Below are positions 1 through 40,686 of a stretch of 40,686 nucleotides of DNA, piece after piece (within the stretch, counting starts at the first letter, position 1; each line of letters begins with the position of its first letter). Origin of the DNA: Oligoflexia bacterium (GTDB taxonomy: Bacteria; Bdellovibrionota; Bacteriovoracia; Bacteriovoracales; Bacteriovoracaceae). The notes beneath the pieces are model-generated. The model had not been told where the DNA came from. It did not search any database and was given only the letters and a program-made list of their open reading frames with translations. The stretch covers positions 1 through 40,686 of the forward strand of contig JADGAN010000045.1 of the NCBI GenBank assembly GCA_015231955.1, read 5' to 3'. The position numbers and the translations under genes were made by a program.

Positions 1-255
1 AAAAACAGATCCCAACGCTTCAAAACTGGAAGGTCTTGATTTTCATATTGCAGATTGGAATGGCCCCAAAGAATATGCCGATGATGAAATTGGGGTACTA
101 AACAACTATGTTAAAATGAGAAAGTCTGATGTCCTGGATGGCGAGGTTCCACAGGAGGCCAAGGAACTTGTTTATAGCTATCAATTCGCAAAGAAATTTG
201 CGACTGATCAAGATAGAATTAACTCCACGATCTATAACAATTTAAAGAATGCTCC
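1..255. repeat. Terminal direct repeat, left copy (circular overlap)
   Basis: Bases 1-255 are identical to 40432-40686. The repeat lies inside a gene that reads in frame across the join (39134 to 40431, then 1 to 1834; 3132 nt, exactly 1044 codons). This is best explained as the overlap left when a circular molecule is written as a linear contig, not as a functional terminal repeat. Confidence 0.95.
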
Positions 256-3091: not shown

Positions 3092-3280
3092 TTATGGACT
3101 TCGCCACTTCTTTCCACTTTCTTGATCGTTCTTTTCTCTCTCCCTCAGTAAATTGATTACATAGTCTATGGCCGCCGTAAGGCCAGGGAAGTGTCGTTTC
3201 ACTAACTTCATGTCATCATCATTGACACATAGTGTGCGTAGTTTTTTTACTTTATTCTTCGGTTTTTTTATGTTCGCCAT
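3092..3280 (-). CDS. Small basic hypothetical protein, possibly DNA-binding
   Basis: 62 aa. The N-terminus is lysine-rich (about residues 4-14), followed by a short strand-like segment (LRTLCVND), then a helix-turn-helix-like stretch around DDMKLVKRHF and AAIDYVINLLREREK. The pattern of basic tail, strand and two helices recalls small ribbon-helix-helix regulators, but no family signature is definite. A weak GAGAG ribosome site precedes the ATG. The AT-rich upstream region contains a 22-bp perfect palindrome (3307-3328) that would suit an autoregulatory operator. It could be a small repressor, which matters because no other phage repressor is evident. Function unknown. Confidence 0.5.
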   Translation of the reverse strand: MANIKKPKNKVKKLRTLCVNDDDMKLVKRHFPGLTAAIDYVINLLREREKNDQESGKKWRSP

Positions 3281-9190: not shown

Positions 9191-10303
9191 ATGGACAAAA
9201 ATTTTAGTTCAAATGTCGATGGCGAGATCTCGCCAAAAAATGTGTCGCAAAGGCCGGAGAGAGAAAGGGTTACTATAGACGGAGTGGAATACATTCGCGA
9301 ACTAAAGAATGGGCAGTTGTGGGTGTTTGATGATGAGAGAGCGCTAGGAATCTCTGTATATCAAGACACCGAACAAACGTCTGAAAAAAAATCAGCACTC
9401 TTTGAATTTCTATTATCATCAAATAGTCCTGAGACGAGACGTATTTATAAAATTGAACTCAAACTTTTTTTTGAATTCTTAGCAGAGTTTAAATTTCCAA
9501 GCGATGAAAAAAAATTGGAAAAGCTACACCTCATCGCTTATCGCGATCACTTAAGCAAGCACAACTACGCCTTTAAAACGATTCGCCGAAAAATTTCAGT
9601 CGTAAACAGCTACTTTAATTACTTAGAAGAGAAAGGACTCATTCCAAAAAATAAGTGCACCCTCAAGACAAAAGAGCTACCTAAAGATCAAGTGGTAAGG
9701 CCCACCAATGCTCTTACCGATGAAGAAGCCCTTAAAATCCTAGAGCTCTCACAAAATCATCATAGCGATGAAAGAGTGAGGATTTTTCATCACGCTATCT
9801 TATCGCTCTTTTTAGCAAGCGGCATGCGCGTAACAGAGCTTATCACTCTCAAAAGAAATTCTTACCAAGAAGTAGATGGGATTTATTTTTTAAAAATACT
9901 CGGCAAAGGCGGAAAAATTCGAGAAGTGCCGCTCACTAATAGAAGTAAGCAGGCCCTCGATGAATATTTTTTGATGATGGAGCGGCACAGCCGGCGTATC
10001 GAAAGTGGCGACCCGATCTTTCAGCCGCAATCTAGCAACGATCCCAGTGATAATTTAAAACGAGCATGCTCTCATCTCTTAATTGATAAGATGATTAAAA
10101 AGTATTGCTTACTTGCAGGCATAAAAAAAAGAATCACTCCGCACTCTTTACGGGCCACTACAATTACGCATTTACGGGAACAAGAGGCCGATATTTATGC
10201 GATTGCTGAAATGGCGGGGCATGCTTCGCCGGAGACTACCAAACGCTATATTAAGCGGGCCGACCAGCTTTCTCGATCGGCCGCTTTTAAGTCAAAGTTT
10301 TAG
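9191..10303 (+). CDS. Tyrosine recombinase (XerC/D-like integrase/resolvase)
   Basis: 370 aa with a strong GAGGGGG ribosome site. A non-catalytic N-terminal extension (about 1-65) is followed by a SAM-like core-binding domain (70-155) and the catalytic domain (175-360). All catalytic residues are visible: R213 in SGMRVTEL, K239/K242 in GKGGK, H318 and R321 in HSLRATT, H344 in MAGHASPETT and nucleophile Y353 in TKRYIKR. It is closer to Xer/resolvase-type enzymes than to phage integrases with arm-binding domains. With parA, rep and kfrA on the same circle, a role in dimer resolution is at least as likely as chromosomal integration. No excisionase-like gene is seen next to it. The 60-residue extension is unusual for XerC/D. 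Confidence 0.88.
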   Translation: MDKNFSSNVDGEISPKNVSQRPERERVTIDGVEYIRELKNGQLWVFDDERALGISVYQDTEQTSEKKSALFEFLLSSNSPETRRIYKIELKLFFEFLAEFKFPSDEKKLEKLHLIAYRDHLSKHNYAFKTIRRKISVVNSYFNYLEEKGLIPKNKCTLKTKELPKDQVVRPTNALTDEEALKILELSQNHHSDERVRIFHHAILSLFLASGMRVTELITLKRNSYQEVDGIYFLKILGKGGKIREVPLTNRSKQALDEYFLMMERHSRRIESGDPIFQPQSSNDPSDNLKRACSHLLIDKMIKKYCLLAGIKKRITPHSLRATTITHLREQEADIYAIAEMAGHASPETTKRYIKRADQLSRSAAFKSKF

Positions 10304-15046: not shown

Positions 15047-15330
15047 GATTATTATTATCGTTAGCACTGCTATTCTCTCTTGCAAGCTGCGGCTCTCTCA
15101 CAAAAAAAGAAGTTATCGAAGTTAAAGTTCCGGTGATCCAACCAATACCAGAACCACCCAAGATAGAACGTCCTTCTCTGGAAATAAATTTCATCACAGA
15201 TGAAGATTTAAAAAATCAAAATTTAGACAAAATTGTAAAATCAATGGAAATAACTATCCAGCAATTACTGGACTATTCACGAAAACTTGAAAAGGCACTA
15301 GATGCTTACAGATTGTTGCCTCCTACGTGA
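15043..15330 (+). CDS. Outer-membrane spanin lipoprotein (Rz1-like)
   Basis: 95 aa. Signal peptide with lipobox LASC and lipidated Cys16, then a proline-rich stretch (VPVIQPIPEPPKIERP) typical of Rz1 o-spanins, then a short helix (about 65-92). It overlaps the i-spanin gene by 4 nt instead of being nested inside it. The partner geometry, size and proline content make the assignment strong. No clear terminator follows before the convergent gene ending at 15451. Confidence 0.83.
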   Translation: MRLLLSLALLFSLASCGSLTKKEVIEVKVPVIQPIPEPPKIERPSLEINFITDEDLKNQNLDKIVKSMEITIQQLLDYSRKLEKALDAYRLLPPT

Positions 15331-19782: not shown

Positions 19783-20826
19783 ATGGATCTACATAGATTA
19801 ATTTGGGCACTGACAAATAAATGTAACCTGAGTTGCGACTTTTGCTATGCAATGTCATCGCCAAATGCAGAAGAAGGTGTTTCAACAGAGGTAGCACTAA
19901 AGTTTGTTGATGAGATAAATAACTCACCAACAAAACACGTTTCTTTAGTTGGAGGTGAGCCTCTCTTACGCGAAGACATCGAAATTATTGTGCGGCGATT
20001 TCGGCCAGACATTACAATTTCAATTGGAACAAATGGCATATTGATTGATAAAAAGTGGAGTGATTACCTCACAAAAAGAATATTACAAGTATCTATTGGA
20101 TTGGATGGCTCCCCTTCTATTAATTCAATGTTTAGGGCTCAAACAGAACGAGTTGCTTCTAATATAAGAAGCTTGATCAAAGACGGTGTAAGAGTTGCTA
20201 TCCCAATGTTGGTTAATGCAAAAAATTACAATACAATTGATGCTGCTGTAAAATATGTGGCTTCATTGGGCGTTTCAAAAATAAAAATCAATAAATTTAT
20301 TCCTGTATATGGGAGTCAAAACGCGCAAGATCTATCGCTTTCTCGACATCAAGAAATCACAGCTATTTCACTAATGAGAAAAGCAATTGATGAAAACAGC
20401 GAATTAGAGAAACTGCTTTCGTATTCAGGATGGTATAGTCCAGAGTATTTTAAAAAACTTACTAAGGGACGAAACAAACGATCATCATGCTACTGCGGTG
20501 TATGGTCAATGGCCATAGCATTTGATGGCAGTGTTGTTCCTTGTAATGTTTTAACACAACGTAGAGTCTTGGATTTTTTTAACTCGATGAATAAATATAA
20601 AATACTTAATATTGCAGATGGAGATATTTTTAATAAAATATCAACGAATGATTTATTCATTGAGGTTATCAGAGCAGCAGTAGCTTTAATTCCTCCAGGA
20701 TGTAGTAATTGTGACAGAGTGGATAAATGCACACATGGATGCAGGATTTATGCTTTTCTAAAAACAAATAACTGGGAAGGTCACGTACCTTATTGTAATT
20801 ACTTATTAGAAAATAATAGTATTTAA
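19783..20826 (+). CDS. Radical SAM/SPASM peptide-modifying enzyme
   Basis: 347 aa with an AGAGG ribosome site. The radical SAM cluster motif is C14-x3-C18-x2-C21 (CNLSCDFC), followed by GGEP (57-60). The C-terminal part is a full SPASM domain: C238-x10-G-x4-C254, then C307-x2-C310-x5-C316-x3-C320, then C338, ligands for two further 4Fe-4S clusters. Such enzymes install carbon-carbon or thioether links or other radical changes in ribosomally made peptides, or act as sulfatase-maturase-like enzymes. No sulfatase gene is present, and the signal-peptide protein at 19110-19505 is the only nearby substrate candidate. No dedicated peptidase or transporter gene is adjacent. A SPASM enzyme as cargo of a phage-plasmid is unusual. 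Confidence 0.88.
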   Translation: MDLHRLIWALTNKCNLSCDFCYAMSSPNAEEGVSTEVALKFVDEINNSPTKHVSLVGGEPLLREDIEIIVRRFRPDITISIGTNGILIDKKWSDYLTKRILQVSIGLDGSPSINSMFRAQTERVASNIRSLIKDGVRVAIPMLVNAKNYNTIDAAVKYVASLGVSKIKINKFIPVYGSQNAQDLSLSRHQEITAISLMRKAIDENSELEKLLSYSGWYSPEYFKKLTKGRNKRSSCYCGVWSMAIAFDGSVVPCNVLTQRRVLDFFNSMNKYKILNIADGDIFNKISTNDLFIEVIRAAVALIPPGCSNCDRVDKCTHGCRIYAFLKTNNWEGHVPYCNYLLENNSI

Positions 20827-21144: not shown

Positions 21145-22533
21145 TCAATTTTTTCTAATCTCTCCATTTATTTGTCCTAGTTTTTGTGGCCAAAATTCTT
21201 CTTCAAATAGAGTTTTAAGATTAAGCTTGTGAAATGTTCCCATAAACTCCCCTATGCAGTGCTTTGGGTCACGTTTAACAGATTCAGGAAGATCCGCTAG
21301 CCATAGCTCAAACTCAATGTTTTTTAGCTTTTCCTCTTTTTCTTTTTTTTGCCTTAACTGCTCTGCTCTTTTTTTTATCAAGTTATCTAAAGCTTCTTCC
21401 TCTGGATCTCTGAAGCCCGAAGAGATCCAAACTTGACTTTTTTTCGTTGCACCCATGAAGTATCTCACGGCATTTAGATTGGGATTTTTTGTCAACAGTT
21501 GATTGCAGGCGATATCGTGAGCAAAGTTATCCAAAGATTCTTGCAATTTTTCAGCAGGCAGATAGCCCCTGTTTCTTACTTGATCGATTATGTTCCTACC
21601 AAATCCTAACCCTTTTAGTATTTCTGGAGTTTGGATTTCTTTCCACTCGCTTTCAAAGTTAGAACCTTCGCTAGTAGTATTAGTATTTATATTATTATTA
21701 AAAATACTACTATTACTACTAGAGGCCGTTGTTACCTGTTGTGACACCTGTTTGTTACCCGTTGTGACACCTGTTTGTTGTATGTTTGTTACCTGTTTGT
21801 TACCTGTTTGTTGTATGTTTGTTACCTCTTTGTTATCTGTTTGTTGTATGTTTGTTACCTGTTTGTTACCTGTTTCAAGTTGAAGCATCTCGTTGAAAAT
21901 GGAATTAGTGAGAGCAAAAACAGACCATCCTCCTCTTCCTGTTTTTGATTGCTTAACGGTAAGTACTAGTTTCTTTTTTAGTCGGTCGATTGCTGTCTTT
22001 GTCGATGGAATGGGGGCTTCGCTTGCTTGTGCTAAGCATTCAATTGTCATTGGAGGAGTTATTCTTTCGTTGCTGTATTTGCACTCTCCGTATACGACTG
22101 TAACGACGCGCCGTTGGGTTCCTAGGAGCGTGACGAATTTCGGGGGAAACTCTGCTTTTGTTATCTGTTTGTTACCTGTTTGTTGTATGTTTGTTACCTC
22201 TTTGTTACCTGTTTGTTGTATGTTTGTTACCTCTTTGTTACCCGTTTGTTGTATGTTTGGTGTTTCCTTGTTACCCGTTATGACACCTGTTTGTTGTCTG
22301 TTTGTTACCTCTTTGTTGCTCGTTTGTTGTCTGTTTGTTACCTGTTTGTTACCCGTTGTGACACCTGTTTGTTGTCTGTTTGTTACCTCTTTGTTACCCG
22401 TTTGTTGTTCATTGTTTTCATGGCTCAATGCCATGTCTTCATAATAGTCAACAAACCCAGGAGAGTCGTCCGGAGTGCTATCAGTGATAAAACTTTCCAA
22501 CTCTTCTCTTAGGGAGTTCTTTCTCTTTTTCAT
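21145..22533 (-). CDS. Replication initiator-like protein with winged helix and iteron-encoded repeats
   Basis: 462 aa, GGGAG ribosome site, 15 bp after parA. Residues 1-42 are charged. Residues 43-125 are about seven repeats of QQTGNKEVTNI/R type (11 aa, some 15). Residues 128-218 are a winged-helix domain (ITPPMTIECLAQASEAPIPS, TAIDRLKKKL, GRGGWSVFAL). Residues 221-266 are more repeats. An Asn/Ser-rich linker follows (267-292), then a C-terminal domain (300-455) with LQESLDNFAHDIACN and NAVRYFMGATKKSQVW, a pattern I associate with plasmid replication-type proteins. The order DNA-binding domain, iteron-coded linker, AT-rich linker and C-terminal domain mirrors phage lambda O, whose gene contains the origin. 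Direct activity evidence is absent. Confidence 0.7.
   Translation of the reverse strand: MKKRKNSLREELESFITDSTPDDSPGFVDYYEDMALSHENNEQQTGNKEVTNRQQTGVTTGNKQVTNRQQTSNKEVTNRQQTGVITGNKETPNIQQTGNKEVTNIQQTGNKEVTNIQQTGNKQITKAEFPPKFVTLLGTQRRVVTVVYGECKYSNERITPPMTIECLAQASEAPIPSTKTAIDRLKKKLVLTVKQSKTGRGGWSVFALTNSIFNEMLQLETGNKQVTNIQQTDNKEVTNIQQTGNKQVTNIQQTGVTTGNKQVSQQVTTASSSNSSIFNNNINTNTTSEGSNFESEWKEIQTPEILKGLGFGRNIIDQVRNRGYLPAEKLQESLDNFAHDIACNQLLTKNPNLNAVRYFMGATKKSQVWISSGFRDPEEEALDNLIKKRAEQLRQKKEKEEKLKNIEFELWLADLPESVKRDPKHCIGEFMGTFHKLNLKTLFEEEFWPQKLGQINGEIRKN
21671..21722. other. AT-rich imperfect dyad inside rep, candidate unwinding element
   Basis: A 52-bp stretch of almost pure A/T with imperfect mirror-complement arms (about 21671-21688 and 21702-21722), beginning 9 bp from the iteron block at 21731. 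It encodes only an Asn/Ser-rich linker, so selection on the DNA is plausible. In lambda the AT-rich region lies next to the iterons inside gene O in the same order. Confidence 0.5.
21731..21870. repeat. Iteron block B (7 GTTACC repeats) inside rep
   Basis: GTTACC begins at 21731, 21754, 21788, 21799, 21821, 21854 and 21865, with a GTTATC variant at 21832. Spacings are 23, 34, 11, 22, 33 and 11 bp, so nearly every copy lies on the same face of the helix. On the coding strand the core is GGTAACAAA, read in two frames within the repeated peptide. Pattern and position suit Rep-binding iterons. Confidence 0.75.
22160..22398. repeat. Iteron block A (11 GTTACC repeats) inside rep
   Basis: GTTACC begins at 22171, 22193, 22204, 22226, 22237, 22270, 22304, 22337, 22348, 22382 and 22393, with a GTTATC variant at 22160. 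Spacings are 11, 22, 11, 22, 11, 33, 34, 33, 11, 34 and 11 bp. The block encodes the N-terminal peptide repeats (residues 43-125) and flanks the winged-helix coding region opposite to block B. It could bind Rep for copy control or handcuffing. Confidence 0.75.
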
Positions 22534-22548
22534 TTCTTACTCCCTTTT

Positions 22549-23400
22549 TTATATTTGAGTGGTAAGTGATTGCTGTGTTTGAAGAATGGACTCTTGATGA
22601 CTGTTTTTGGCACCGGTTTCGTTTATTCGTGCAATAATGCTTTCGGCAAGCGCCTTGCAATCTTCTGTCAATTTTCCTTTGGGAAATGTGTCTGAAAGAA
22701 ATTTTTTTCTAGATTGTGTTGTTTTCATATTGGAAGATTCTCTTAGTGAAGGAAAGATAACTCCTCCGCTTAGCATATCGTTTTCTTCAAGAACTTTGAG
22801 ATCTTCTAATATCATGTCGTCGACATTTCTTCTTGGATCGAATCTGATTGGCACTATCCCTAGTATTTTCGCAGTGGGGTATTTGATTTTAGAGGAAAAA
22901 CTTTCTATAAAATAAATAATTGAGCGTGTAGCGGCAAAACTAAGCATTTCCATATCACATGGAATGATAATGTAGTCAGCGTAGCAAGTTATATTTGCGT
23001 GGATAAGATTCATTGTTGGGTTAGAATCTATTAGGATGTAATCATATTTGTCCTCTAACGATGCAAATCTTTTTTTCAACAACAGTTCTGATTCGTCCTG
23101 ATTTTTACATGACCGATCCACTCCTTCTATTGCCTTACTACCAGATGAAATGAGATCTACATTACTTGTTGCTGGAATAATTGCTGTTTCTGGCCTGTAT
23201 CCGTGCAGCAGTATACCCGCTGCCGAGTGTTCTTTTTCTGACTTGTCTTTCACGCCCAATAGTGTCCGTTGATTGTTTTGTTGGTCGAGATCAAGAATCA
23301 AAACCCTCCCGATATATCGCAAGTTATCGGCCAGAATATTTACTAGTGTGGATTTTCCAACACCCCCTTTTTGATTCATAATGCTGATCTTAATAGCCAT
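22549..23400 (-). CDS. parA: ParA-family partition ATPase
   Basis: 283 aa, GAGGGG ribosome site. Deviant Walker A KGGVGKST at residues 11-18 (signature lysine K11 and K16), Walker A' at VLILDLDQQNN and Walker B near YDYILIDSNP, the order of ParA/Soj/MinD ATPases. ParA forms ATP-dependent gradients on the nucleoid and moves plasmid copies apart with a ParB-type partner bound at a centromere. No ParB-like gene follows; rep is directly downstream with a 15-bp gap. KfrA, or the Rep protein with its iterons, might act as the DNA-binding partner, which is inference. Upstream DNA contains two degenerate iteron units (23591-23612). Confidence 0.92.
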   Translation of the reverse strand: MAIKISIMNQKGGVGKSTLVNILADNLRYIGRVLILDLDQQNNQRTLLGVKDKSEKEHSAAGILLHGYRPETAIIPATSNVDLISSGSKAIEGVDRSCKNQDESELLLKKRFASLEDKYDYILIDSNPTMNLIHANITCYADYIIIPCDMEMLSFAATRSIIYFIESFSSKIKYPTAKILGIVPIRFDPRRNVDDMILEDLKVLEENDMLSGGVIFPSLRESSNMKTTQSRKKFLSDTFPKGKLTEDCKALAESIIARINETGAKNSHQESILQTQQSLTTQI

Positions 23401-23705
23401 AAATCCCCTCTGTTTTTACTGACGCCTTGTGTGTTAATTATTTCTTGTAAACACCGTTTCTTGTGTTTTATTAGTTTGTGCCTTTTTTCTTTTTTGTTGT
23501 CTATGTAAAAAATGATGATTGAAATCAAATAGTTAGTGTGCTTTGTGGCGAGCCAGCAAGAGAGATCTCTAACTGTTACATGGGCATCACCTGTTTATTA
23601 TCTGTTTATTTCTAGTTCTGTTAGCATGTATGAGCGGCGCCAGCCGGTAAAAACTTCCGATAATGATTATTTAAAACGGAGCCATTTTGAAAAGGTGAGT
23701 ATACT
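23401..23705. other. parA upstream region, candidate operator/centromere
   Basis: 305 bp without a convincing gene. It contains a 10-bp palindrome AGAGATCTCT (23561-23570), an AGTTAG/CTAACT inverted pair (23531-23536 and 23569-23574) and two degenerate iteron-like units 11 bp apart (23591 and 23602). The parA promoter must lie here, but no consensus pair is obvious. A plus-strand frame across 23536-23739 begins with GTG and lacks a ribosome site. Confidence 0.5.
23591..23612. repeat. Two iteron-like units upstream of parA
   Basis: CTGTTTATTAT and CTGTTTATTTC follow each other with the same 11-bp period as the rep iterons (CTGTTTGTTAC type). They suggest that Rep also binds in front of parA and could autoregulate the parA-rep operon. 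Confidence 0.45.
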
Positions 23706-24147
23706 GGAGAGTGGCATTCTTACTTCACAGCATCTCTAAATTCTTGTCCCGGCCGAAATTTAGGTACAGTCTTTGCTTTGATTTTGATCTTTTCTCCGGT
23801 TGAGGGATTAACGCCAACTCTAGCGGCCCTCTTTGCTTTCGTGAATGTTCCGAACCCGACTAATGAAAAACATCATCACCCTTTTTTACACTTGTGATTA
23901 CAGTGCTTATGAGAGTGTTTAAAAAGCGTTCGCCTTGCCTGTTCGACCAGTCTGCGAATTGTTTGTCTTTTAGAATTGTTTCCAGCAATTCTTTCTTGTT
24001 CATGATTCCCCCGTTTTTAGGATTAATAATATTCAGAAAGTTTAGAGAGAAGAGATTGTAGATGGCAAGGTTATTTAGTCCGGGCCTTTAGATGATTTAG
24101 AAAAGTAAATCAATATCAATTCAGTCGGAATATTCTTTAAAAGCAAG
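23706..24147. repeat. Direct duplication, copy 1 (carries the HU pseudogene)
   Basis: Aligns with 24787-25226 in the same orientation. The first 117 bp differ at about 19 positions; the remaining 325 bp differ at only 2 positions plus a 2-nt insertion. The homology stops sharply after TTTAAAAGCAAG on the right. Confidence 0.92.
23720..24003 (-). pseudogene. HU gene copy broken by a 2-nt insertion
   Basis: Reads from ATG at 24003 identically to the intact HU gene (24801-25082) until two extra A bases near 23866-23870. These shift the frame after GDDV and give a stop at 23860, leaving 47 aa. The rest of the HU coding sequence, down to its original TAA at 23720, remains recognisable and differs mostly at third codon positions. 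So this copy was once functional, diverged, was partly overwritten by the other copy, and then broke. The truncated peptide lacks the DNA-binding arm (RxGxNPxTG) and should be inactive. Confidence 0.88.
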
Positions 24148-39137: not shown

Positions 39138-40686
39138 ACAAAGAAGAGTATGATTATTACAGACTTCAAGATCAAGCAATCAATGATTTTTCAAATGCAC
39201 CGTATGCGCGGTCTGCTTTTGATCGCTTGTTAAAATATTTATCGGCCACGGGTGATATTTCACGAGGAATGCTTATCTCGCAATATGGGTCAAGTCCTGA
39301 TCGAATTACAAATCCTATCGATGCAGCAAAAGCGGCATTAAAAGGCCAAAGAGAGTATGGTGCCGATGAGTTTCGTCGAGAGATGGGTTGGGAGAGTTGG
39401 TCAAAGAAGCTTGGTGATCTGGGGGTTGAAGTTCCTGAATACCCAGAAAGTTCGTTGACGGTTGCAGTGGATAAGATCAAAAAGAATTTACTTTCGGAAC
39501 CGGCACCATTTGCTAAGACGGGTACAATTTCAGATTTTATCACTGCAATTCCTCGGTTGGCATCTGTGCTCTCCGATTCAAAAGAGAAGATCACCACTGA
39601 TGATCCCATTACAATGGGTGATGTGGCCGATACGGCCCAGAGAGTAGCAATAGATTTGGCCACAGATCCCACTAGCATTGCTTTGGGTTTGGGTTCATTA
39701 AGTAAGACAATAAAAGGCATAGAGAAAGGTGCTAATATCTTAAAGCAATCTACATTTTTGCAAAACGCAAAGAAAGCAGGCCTTGGAGCAATTGCTGGAG
39801 GATCGATACTTTCAGATTATAACGATGATGACAGTGATTTAGTAAAAAACATGGGCCTTGGTGCGGCCGGATTTTTCTTGCTTCCTCCTACTTTAAAATT
39901 CGCGGGGAAGGAATTTCTGGATTACGGGGATAACCTGCTTGCAAAATATTTAAAGCATACCAGGCCACAAACTTTTGATAAAGTTCAAGAAAAGCTTATT
40001 GAAAAAAGACTCATTGGTGATGGCACTGTTCTTGATGAGAACAATATCAAGCAAGCGATAGGAGGAGTAAAGGATTTCAAAGATAGGCACTTCAAGATTT
40101 GGCAAGACATCAATTCAAGTAGATCAAAGATCTATAATAATCTTTCTCCCGAAGATCAGGCCTCTTTTACGAATTTCATGCAAGATATGTTTCGGCAGTC
40201 GATCACCAATCGTAATAGTGCCCTGGGATTAAGATTAACAGATAGAGCGCAAAAAATTGATATTGATCCTGATTATTTTAATGAAATAACAAGAACTATA
40301 AATAATCAGATGAACGATGTGGCCAAAGAAAAACTTGTTCAGGGTGGTTACTCTGGTACTGTTAAAAATGCCGTCGAAAATTGGGTGAGGAATAATCAAA
40401 GAATTGTAGGGAATTATAATAATTTTTTGCAAAAAACAGATCCCAACGCTTCAAAACTGGAAGGTCTTGATTTTCATATTGCAGATTGGAATGGCCCCAA
40501 AGAATATGCCGATGATGAAATTGGGGTACTAAACAACTATGTTAAAATGAGAAAGTCTGATGTCCTGGATGGCGAGGTTCCACAGGAGGCCAAGGAACTT
40601 GTTTATAGCTATCAATTCGCAAAGAAATTTGCGACTGATCAAGATAGAATTAACTCCACGATCTATAACAATTTAAAGAATGCTCC
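39134..40686 (+). CDS. Large virion (ejection-type) protein, N-terminal part; continues at base 1
   Basis: ATG at 39134 overlaps the previous stop (ATGA). The frame is open to the window end and, because 40432-40686 equals 1-255, continues unbroken to the stop at 1834. Total 1043 aa. N-terminal part is helical (NKEEYDYYRLQDQAINDFSN, FDRLLKYLSATGDISRGMLI). Residues about 205-255 contain two small hydrophobic Gly/Ala-rich segments (KKAGLGAIAGGSILS, NMGLGAAGFFLLPPTL) that could insert in membranes. The rest of the protein is described at 1-1834. Length, place and these segments fit an internal virion protein that crosses the envelope with the DNA; this is inference. Confidence 0.82.
   Translation, partial: MNKEEYDYYRLQDQAINDFSNAPYARSAFDRLLKYLSATGDISRGMLISQYGSSPDRITNPIDAAKAALKGQREYGADEFRREMGWESWSKKLGDLGVEVPEYPESSLTVAVDKIKKNLLSEPAPFAKTGTISDFITAIPRLASVLSDSKEKITTDDPITMGDVADTAQRVAIDLATDPTSIALGLGSLSKTIKGIEKGANILKQSTFLQNAKKAGLGAIAGGSILSDYNDDDSDLVKNMGLGAAGFFLLPPTLKFAGKEFLDYGDNLLAKYLKHTRPQTFDKVQEKLIEKRLIGDGTVLDENNIKQAIGGVKDFKDRHFKIWQDINSSRSKIYNNLSPEDQASFTNFMQDMFRQSITNRNSALGLRLTDRAQKIDIDPDYFNEITRTINNQMNDVAKEKLVQGGYSGTVKNAVENWVRNNQRIVGNYNNFLQKTDPNASKLEGLDFHIADWNGPKEYADDEIGVLNNYVKMRKSDVLDGEVPQEAKELVYSYQFAKKFATDQDRINSTIYNNLKNA
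40432..40686. repeat. Terminal direct repeat, right copy (circular overlap)
   Basis: Identical to 1-255. See the left copy; the unique circle is 1-40431. Confidence 0.95.

Follow-up and report, generated by a model that had tools for sequence, protein, structure and literature searches.

The stretch of DNA analysed here (the window; 40,686 nt) carries 255 identical bases at both contig ends, and because of this terminal overlap the element is taken to be circular, with a length of about 40,431 bp. Its gene content is phage-like, including portal, capsid and terminase-like genes as well as an integrase and parA. The integrase is of the tyrosine type (9191-10303, +), and an element that bears it together with a parA-rep pair may be capable of both integration and plasmid-type replication. 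The rep-type gene has as a neighbour a gene for a radical SAM/SPASM protein (19783-20826, +), and upstream of parA lies an HU-like gene (23730-24060, -) whose coding sequence is divided between two frames (MNKKELLETILKD...KKGDDVF and FSLVGFGTF...RDAVK), the result of a frameshift or a sequencing error.

The rep-type gene itself is an uninterrupted reading frame (Table 1), the complete product of which has no convincing match in Pfam, NCBIfam or PHROG. The initial annotation had placed within it a winged helix, a repeat-coded linker, an AT-rich Asn/Ser linker and a C-terminal domain, in that order, as well as a second repeat block in the N-terminal coding part; both the order and the additional block are found in this reading frame, the latter ahead of the winged helix. 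Contig C75 from this genome carries a second rep-type copy, 64% identical to the window protein. The window protein (P0001) has no match among phage records, and no related loci were found in viral_contigs, whether sought with the single protein or with an alignment; the pattern AGTAGTAATAGTAGTA was discarded as a search key for the same collection, as it returned at least 120 matches and was hence too unspecific.

Table 1. Positions of the rep-type gene, its parts and associated features in the window
Feature	Coordinates	Strand	Description
Rep-type gene, 462 aa	21145..22533	-	Uninterrupted ORF; N-tail, N-block, winged helix, C-block, AT-rich linker, helical C-terminal domain
N-terminal tail (N-tail), about 38 aa, probable ParA-contact region	22420..22533	-	Inferred from co-variation of N-tail and ParA type in relatives
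N-block, about 18 direct repeats of 11 bp (AACAGGTAACA and variants)	22157..22408	-	Tandem array, period 11 bp
Winged-helix DNA-binding domain (predicted)	21883..22140	-	pLDDT 96-98 and fold matches
C-block, about 11 direct repeats of 11 bp, unit identical to that of the N-block	21729..21875	-	Tandem array; out-of-frame sharing with N-block
Probable DNA unwinding element (DUE), 52 bp	21671..21722	-	CTAGTAGTAATAGTAGTA ... TACTAATACTACTAG; AT-rich inverted trinucleotide element, codes SSSNSSIFNNNINTNTTS (Asn/Ser linker)
C-terminal all-helical domain (CTD), probable contact with host replication machinery	21148..21648	-	AF2 pLDDT 89.7; 95% identity to L209
parA (AAA_31, 283 aa)	22549..23400	-	Directly upstream of rep-type gene
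Two 11-bp repeat-like copies, possible operator	23589..23610	-	Upstream of parA; 1 and 2 mismatches
Terminal overlap	1..255	.	Exact copy of 40432-40686

The winged helix is predicted with high confidence, and a fold search matched it to MarR/ArsR-type structures; TubR (3m9a, Z 8.9) is among its fold matches. The CTD, predicted to be helical, has no match in PDB or BFVD at E<=0.001, the best viral row being a 'replisome organizer' at E 3, and in a profile search of 38 family members one of them weakly matched DnaD_N, a DnaD-like CTD being a trait of the RepA_N initiators of pSK41 type. In the absence of a confident fold match the part of this domain in recruitment remains a guess.

The repeats that the initial annotation had noticed in the gene are real, and only their unit had to be redefined: it is 11 bp long and direct, and the 33-bp (11-aa) peptide repeat is made of three such units, one in each reading frame, the unit AACAAACAGGT being read as NKQV, TNR or QQTG. 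When up to three mismatches are allowed, the window has 25 copies of the double unit AACAAACAGGTAACAAAC versus 0.06 expected from shuffles; all are on the strand of the rep gene, and 24 of the 25 are inside it. The repeat-like pair upstream of parA (Table 1) had escaped the earlier inspection. Across the family 768 copies are in forward and 19 in reverse orientation, and for 31 of 40 genes a spacing of 11 bp is the most frequent one, even though the sequence of the unit varies from gene to gene; the procedure for finding the consensus of these iterons was heuristic.

One could regard such arrays as a property of the protein, that is, a low-complexity linker selected as a peptide, with the DNA repeats a by-product of slippage, and the linkers are indeed rich in Asn, Gln and Thr and predicted to be disordered (residues 121-167 have pLDDT <50). 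However, when each protein was recoded synonymously 200 times and exact 9-mers common to the N-block and the C-block in differing frames were counted, the natural gene exceeded all of its recodings in 32 of 42 cases. Moreover, the unit GGTAACA would introduce a TAA stop if read in frame 0, and all nine window copies in that frame are altered, versus none of 20 in frames 1 and 2. The presence of an identical unit before and after a folded domain is likewise difficult to reconcile with selection on the peptide, as is the fact that unit and peptide change completely among relatives while the 11-bp phase is kept. On the strength of the recoding test and the stop-frame editing the plain peptide reading was rejected, and we regard it as scarcely tenable.

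Further evidence comes from arrays that lie outside the gene. The Cardinium homologue encodes a protein without repeats and has instead a 12-bp tandem array upstream of parA, and in L199 most of the gene's own repeats are situated upstream of parA. Homologues that had retained the peptide repeats and lost the DNA repeats would, according to the initial annotation, have refuted an in-gene origin; the Cardinium case is the opposite. The out-of-frame sharing, the stop-frame editing and these external arrays therefore identify the repeats as a DNA element, and as far as can be judged from sequence comparison DNA-level constraint acts on them. Copies of a gene's own repeats upstream of parA number 21 in the family versus 1.5 by chance and are above chance in a minority of relatives; since most of the 21 belong to L199 they do not constitute a general rule, and autoregulation through them was rejected as a family-wide feature. 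In the Caedibacter plasmid pKAP298 the unannotated gene (L006:13422-14044) has a long N-block, in which AACAGGGGACA is repeated 33 times at intervals of 12/21 bp, and no C-block.

The AT-rich element next to the C-block coincides with the least stable 45-bp stretch in all 40,686 bp of the window, and in the family it is the least stable point in 26 of 42 genes. Nearly all relatives have CTAGTAGTAGTAG...AT...CTACTACTA downstream of the C-block, and 31 of 33 have a significant inverted repeat. Codon usage within the element is strongly biased, AGT accounting for 79% of its Ser codons versus 22% elsewhere (p 7e-37) and ACT for 81% of its Thr codons versus 31% elsewhere. The element is named here as a probable unwinding element (DUE), which sequence comparison shows to be constrained at the level of DNA. 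Its similarity among relatives tracks that of the CTD (partial 0.32, p 0.001) and not that of the winged helix; the C-block or the DUE is missing in a few relatives (L006, L009, L184 and L207). A DnaA-trio/BUS element consists of a DnaA box, a spacer of up to about 16 bp and then 3'-GAT-5' trios (PMC8287927). TAG words are found on both arms of the DUE, the repeat-proximal arm having the opposite polarity to a DnaA-trio, and DnaA boxes are not enriched near the DUE (32 versus 67.6 expected). The canonical form of this reading was rejected on account of the polarity, there also being no adjacent DnaA box and fewer boxes than expected.

GC-skew, which the initial annotation had suggested as a check on an in-gene origin, favours such an origin. 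The raw cumulative minimum of the window falls at 21,719, within the DUE, and the best half-circle split at 21,457. As a control for gene direction, skew was calculated at four-fold degenerate sites for + and - genes separately, and the skew of the + strand was higher to the right of the DUE than to its left for genes of either direction in four replicons (the window, pBdHAGR2, G208:C96 and G225:C9). The differences for minus-strand genes are small in the window and pBdHAGR2, and intergenic skew clearly agrees in three of the four. In pBdHAGR2 the skew split is at 15,216 and the DUE at about 15,000. For G261:C114, G261:C197, pBdHAGR4 and pBdHAGR5 the turning point lies 12-18% of the circle away from the DUE, and in the Piscirickettsia plasmid Psal110 unnamed3 the skew disagrees with the position of the DUE.

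A profile built from five members located the rep-type gene in 28 of 369 genomes of Bdellovibrionota, the phylum of the host, and 42 family genes, mainly from this group, were extracted. Relatives from named genomes belong to the Bdellovibrionales and Oligoflexia, and a family gene also occurs on named plasmids of Bdellovibrio, Piscirickettsia, Caedibacter and Cardinium. The relatives are for the most part contigs from metagenomes, and since the sampled genes are related to one another, tallies of genes do not represent independent observations. Terminal overlaps are present on five contigs; two of these circles are only about 11 kb long, and among their larger ORFs that were scanned no other Pfam initiator was found. 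In all 40 relatives with enough upstream DNA a ParA gene ends beside the rep gene.

Replicons that reside in one genome show how the parts of the gene have been recombined. The CTD and winged-helix identities are, respectively, 97% and 20% in L178/L180, 96% and 31% in L179/L196, 95% and 48% in window/L209, and 87% and 24% in L182/L200; the DUE is shared along with the CTD, and the winged helix and the repeats differ together. In L181/L204 the pattern is reversed: the repeats are identical and the winged helices 77% identical, whereas the CTDs share 11%. The junction lies at the DUE or no more than about 20 bp from it in L178/L180, L182/L200, L179/L196 and L181/L204, and window/L209 can be aligned further upstream than the DUE. 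The complete plasmids pBdHAGR4 and pBdHAGR5 (L245/L246) belong to a single Bdellovibrio isolate. They share 99.7% identity along 7,264 bp but differ in their parA-rep specificity cassettes, the winged helices and repeats being unrelated; similarity returns at base 3094, the start of the AT-rich element. This pair is read as a natural incompatibility switch. Family-wide, the correlation between repeats and winged helix is weak but significant (partial r 0.21, p 0.009).

The regular occurrence of ParA directly upstream could also mean that the locus is a centromere and not an origin, the gene encoding a parB-like partner of ParA, the repeats forming an in-gene parS array and the initiator being located elsewhere. 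Winged-helix centromere binders exist, as the match to TubR illustrates, and the similarity of N-tails tracks the type of ParA and not that of the winged helix (partial Mantel 0.24, p 0.001). In addition, a Piscirickettsia homologue without C-block, DUE and CTD resides on a plasmid that encodes a separate Replicase (PF03090), and pKAP298 encodes another HTH_36 protein. A melting element would be superfluous in a centromere, however, yet the DNA of the DUE is conserved and travels with the CTD; the strand-controlled skew turns at the DUE, no second Pfam initiator was found among the ORFs scanned on the circles of about 11 kb, and the Piscirickettsia salmonis Psal-110 plasmid has a full-length member beside the CTD-less one. 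A centromere alone is accordingly given very little weight. The two members on the Psal-110 plasmid (L244, 1-2446 and 45638-47326) are both linked to parA.

A bifunctional locus is an extension of the in-gene origin and not an exclusive alternative to it: one protein with its repeats would serve partition, the N-tail contacting ParA and the N-block acting as centromere, and also replication, through the C-block, DUE and CTD. All evidence for an in-gene origin counts here too, and it is joined by the separate exchange of three modules (ParA with N-tail, winged helix with repeats, DUE with CTD), by the CTD-less homologue that occurs beside a separate Replicase, and by the lack of a ParB-type Pfam match among the window ORFs scanned. 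The main caveat is that ParA and the N-tail are neighbours on the DNA, so their joint inheritance may be mere linkage; furthermore, small or unknown ParB-like genes are not excluded and interaction data are lacking, and our confidence in the dual function stops just short of an even chance. Because the N-tail co-varies with ParA type, and in view of the CTD-less Piscirickettsia version, the rep-type protein is likely, although unproven, to be the partner of ParA as well, with the N-block as a putative centromere; the N-block may thus serve partition in addition to replication. The more complete scheme, wherein one in-gene set of 11-bp sites is used for both processes, with winged helix and repeats providing origin recognition and centromere, the N-tail the ParA contact, and DUE and CTD the replication half, is put forward tentatively, as a possibility nearly in balance with its negation.

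In lambda O the DNA-binding domain comes first and the recruiting domain last. The initial annotation had called the window gene 'lambda-O style', and with regard to the order of parts this was apt, as both genes combine a DNA-binding domain, iterons, an A+T-rich region and a recruiting domain. The likeness does not extend to the type of repeat, which is 11-bp and direct here, whereas the lambda iterons, inverted repeats of 19 bp, are bound by dimers and have an A+T-rich region adjoining (PMC5043065), nor to membership by sequence: the window protein has no match to Phage_rep_O (PF04492) at E<=0.1, and one of 38 family members matches it weakly (E 0.0023). Lambda O also differs in having no N-terminal repeat block, no ParA and other flanking genes. 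RepA_N initiators (pSK41, pSK1) have an N-terminal winged helix, Rep boxes within the rep gene, an origin-coded linker and a conserved host-specific CTD, and in the chimera pPR9 the N-terminal domain and origin have been replaced next to a CTD of >97% identity (PMC5703833). In the window family, too, the N-terminal domain and putative origin have been replaced while the CTD was retained, and by analogy RepA_N/pSK41 is the closer functional parallel. RepA_N systems are Gram-positive, however, and have four Rep boxes, located only after the N-terminal domain, whereas the window gene has about 29 direct 11-bp repeats flanking the winged helix, a ParA operon and an inverted trinucleotide DUE; RepA_N (PF06970) matched none of the 38 members. 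As judged by profile, the family belongs to neither lambda O nor RepA_N.

The repeats of the iteron plasmids P1, RK2 and R6K lie outside coding sequence. They resemble the window gene in having phased direct repeats near an AT-rich element, the repeats being helically phased and placed beside an A+T-rich opening region (PMC5043065). The window family differs in that no Rep_3 match was found among the 38 members and DnaA boxes are not enriched. In the repABC plasmid p42d of Rhizobium etli the origin is in an A+T-rich stretch inside repC and is disabled by silent mutations (PMC3155836). As is proposed for the window, a ParA gene shares an operon with an initiator gene that contains the origin, but repC is without iterons and ParB is separate; the RP-C (RepC) Pfam family has no match in the window protein or the 38 members. 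Extrachromosomal parABS mycobacteriophages have plasmid-type phage genomes with ParA and RepA and an origin suspected in or near repA; they differ in that their origins showed no repeats and ParB is separate (PMC7157519). The ParABS feature present in the window family is ParA with an adjoining partner gene, in 40 of 40 cases.

We consider it very probable that the gene is a plasmid or prophage replication initiator that also contains the origin, as had been proposed initially, because of the DNA-level selection on the repeats, the constrained DUE, the strand-controlled skew turn and the natural swaps. What can be read directly from the DNA is the constraint on repeats and DUE, the 11-bp phasing, the position, the skew turning point and the module swaps; binding (for which there are no data), melting, recruitment, bidirectionality and autoregulation are inferred, without wet-lab evidence. 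By analogy with known systems, the gene is best read as containing an iteron origin that resembles lambda O in the order of its parts and is closer to RepA_N/pSK41 in its logic. In such an origin parA and rep would be expressed as an operon, and Rep would bind the 11-bp direct repeats through its winged helix, one per helical turn and in a single orientation, the arrays that flank the winged-helix code loading it beside the AT-rich element. This loading would open the 52-bp element, which has an identical trinucleotide word on both strands, and the helical CTD might then recruit host helicase/primase for bidirectional replication. Replicons in one cell would be compatible through exchange of winged helix and repeats as a cassette, with DUE and CTD kept.

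As the family genes carry the annotation 'hypothetical protein' in the plasmid records examined, replicons of the Bdellovibrionota have been without an assigned initiator of this kind, and the family now names a likely initiator and origin for replicons of these predatory bacteria and their relatives, as well as candidate vectors for hosts with few tools. The swapping of winged helix and repeats offers an explanation for the possible coexistence of several related plasmids within a cell. An 11-bp DNA word persists in all three frames of a functional gene, its copies being edited where a stop would arise, and it exists in dozens of sequence versions; the co-evolution of initiator and site is therefore directly testable. 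The independent exchange of three modules makes the family a natural domain-swap set, and if the dual use of the sites were true, the recognition code between winged helix and repeat would be readable from it. Dozens of related plasmids retain the layout, and in them the word is exchanged along with the domain predicted to read it.
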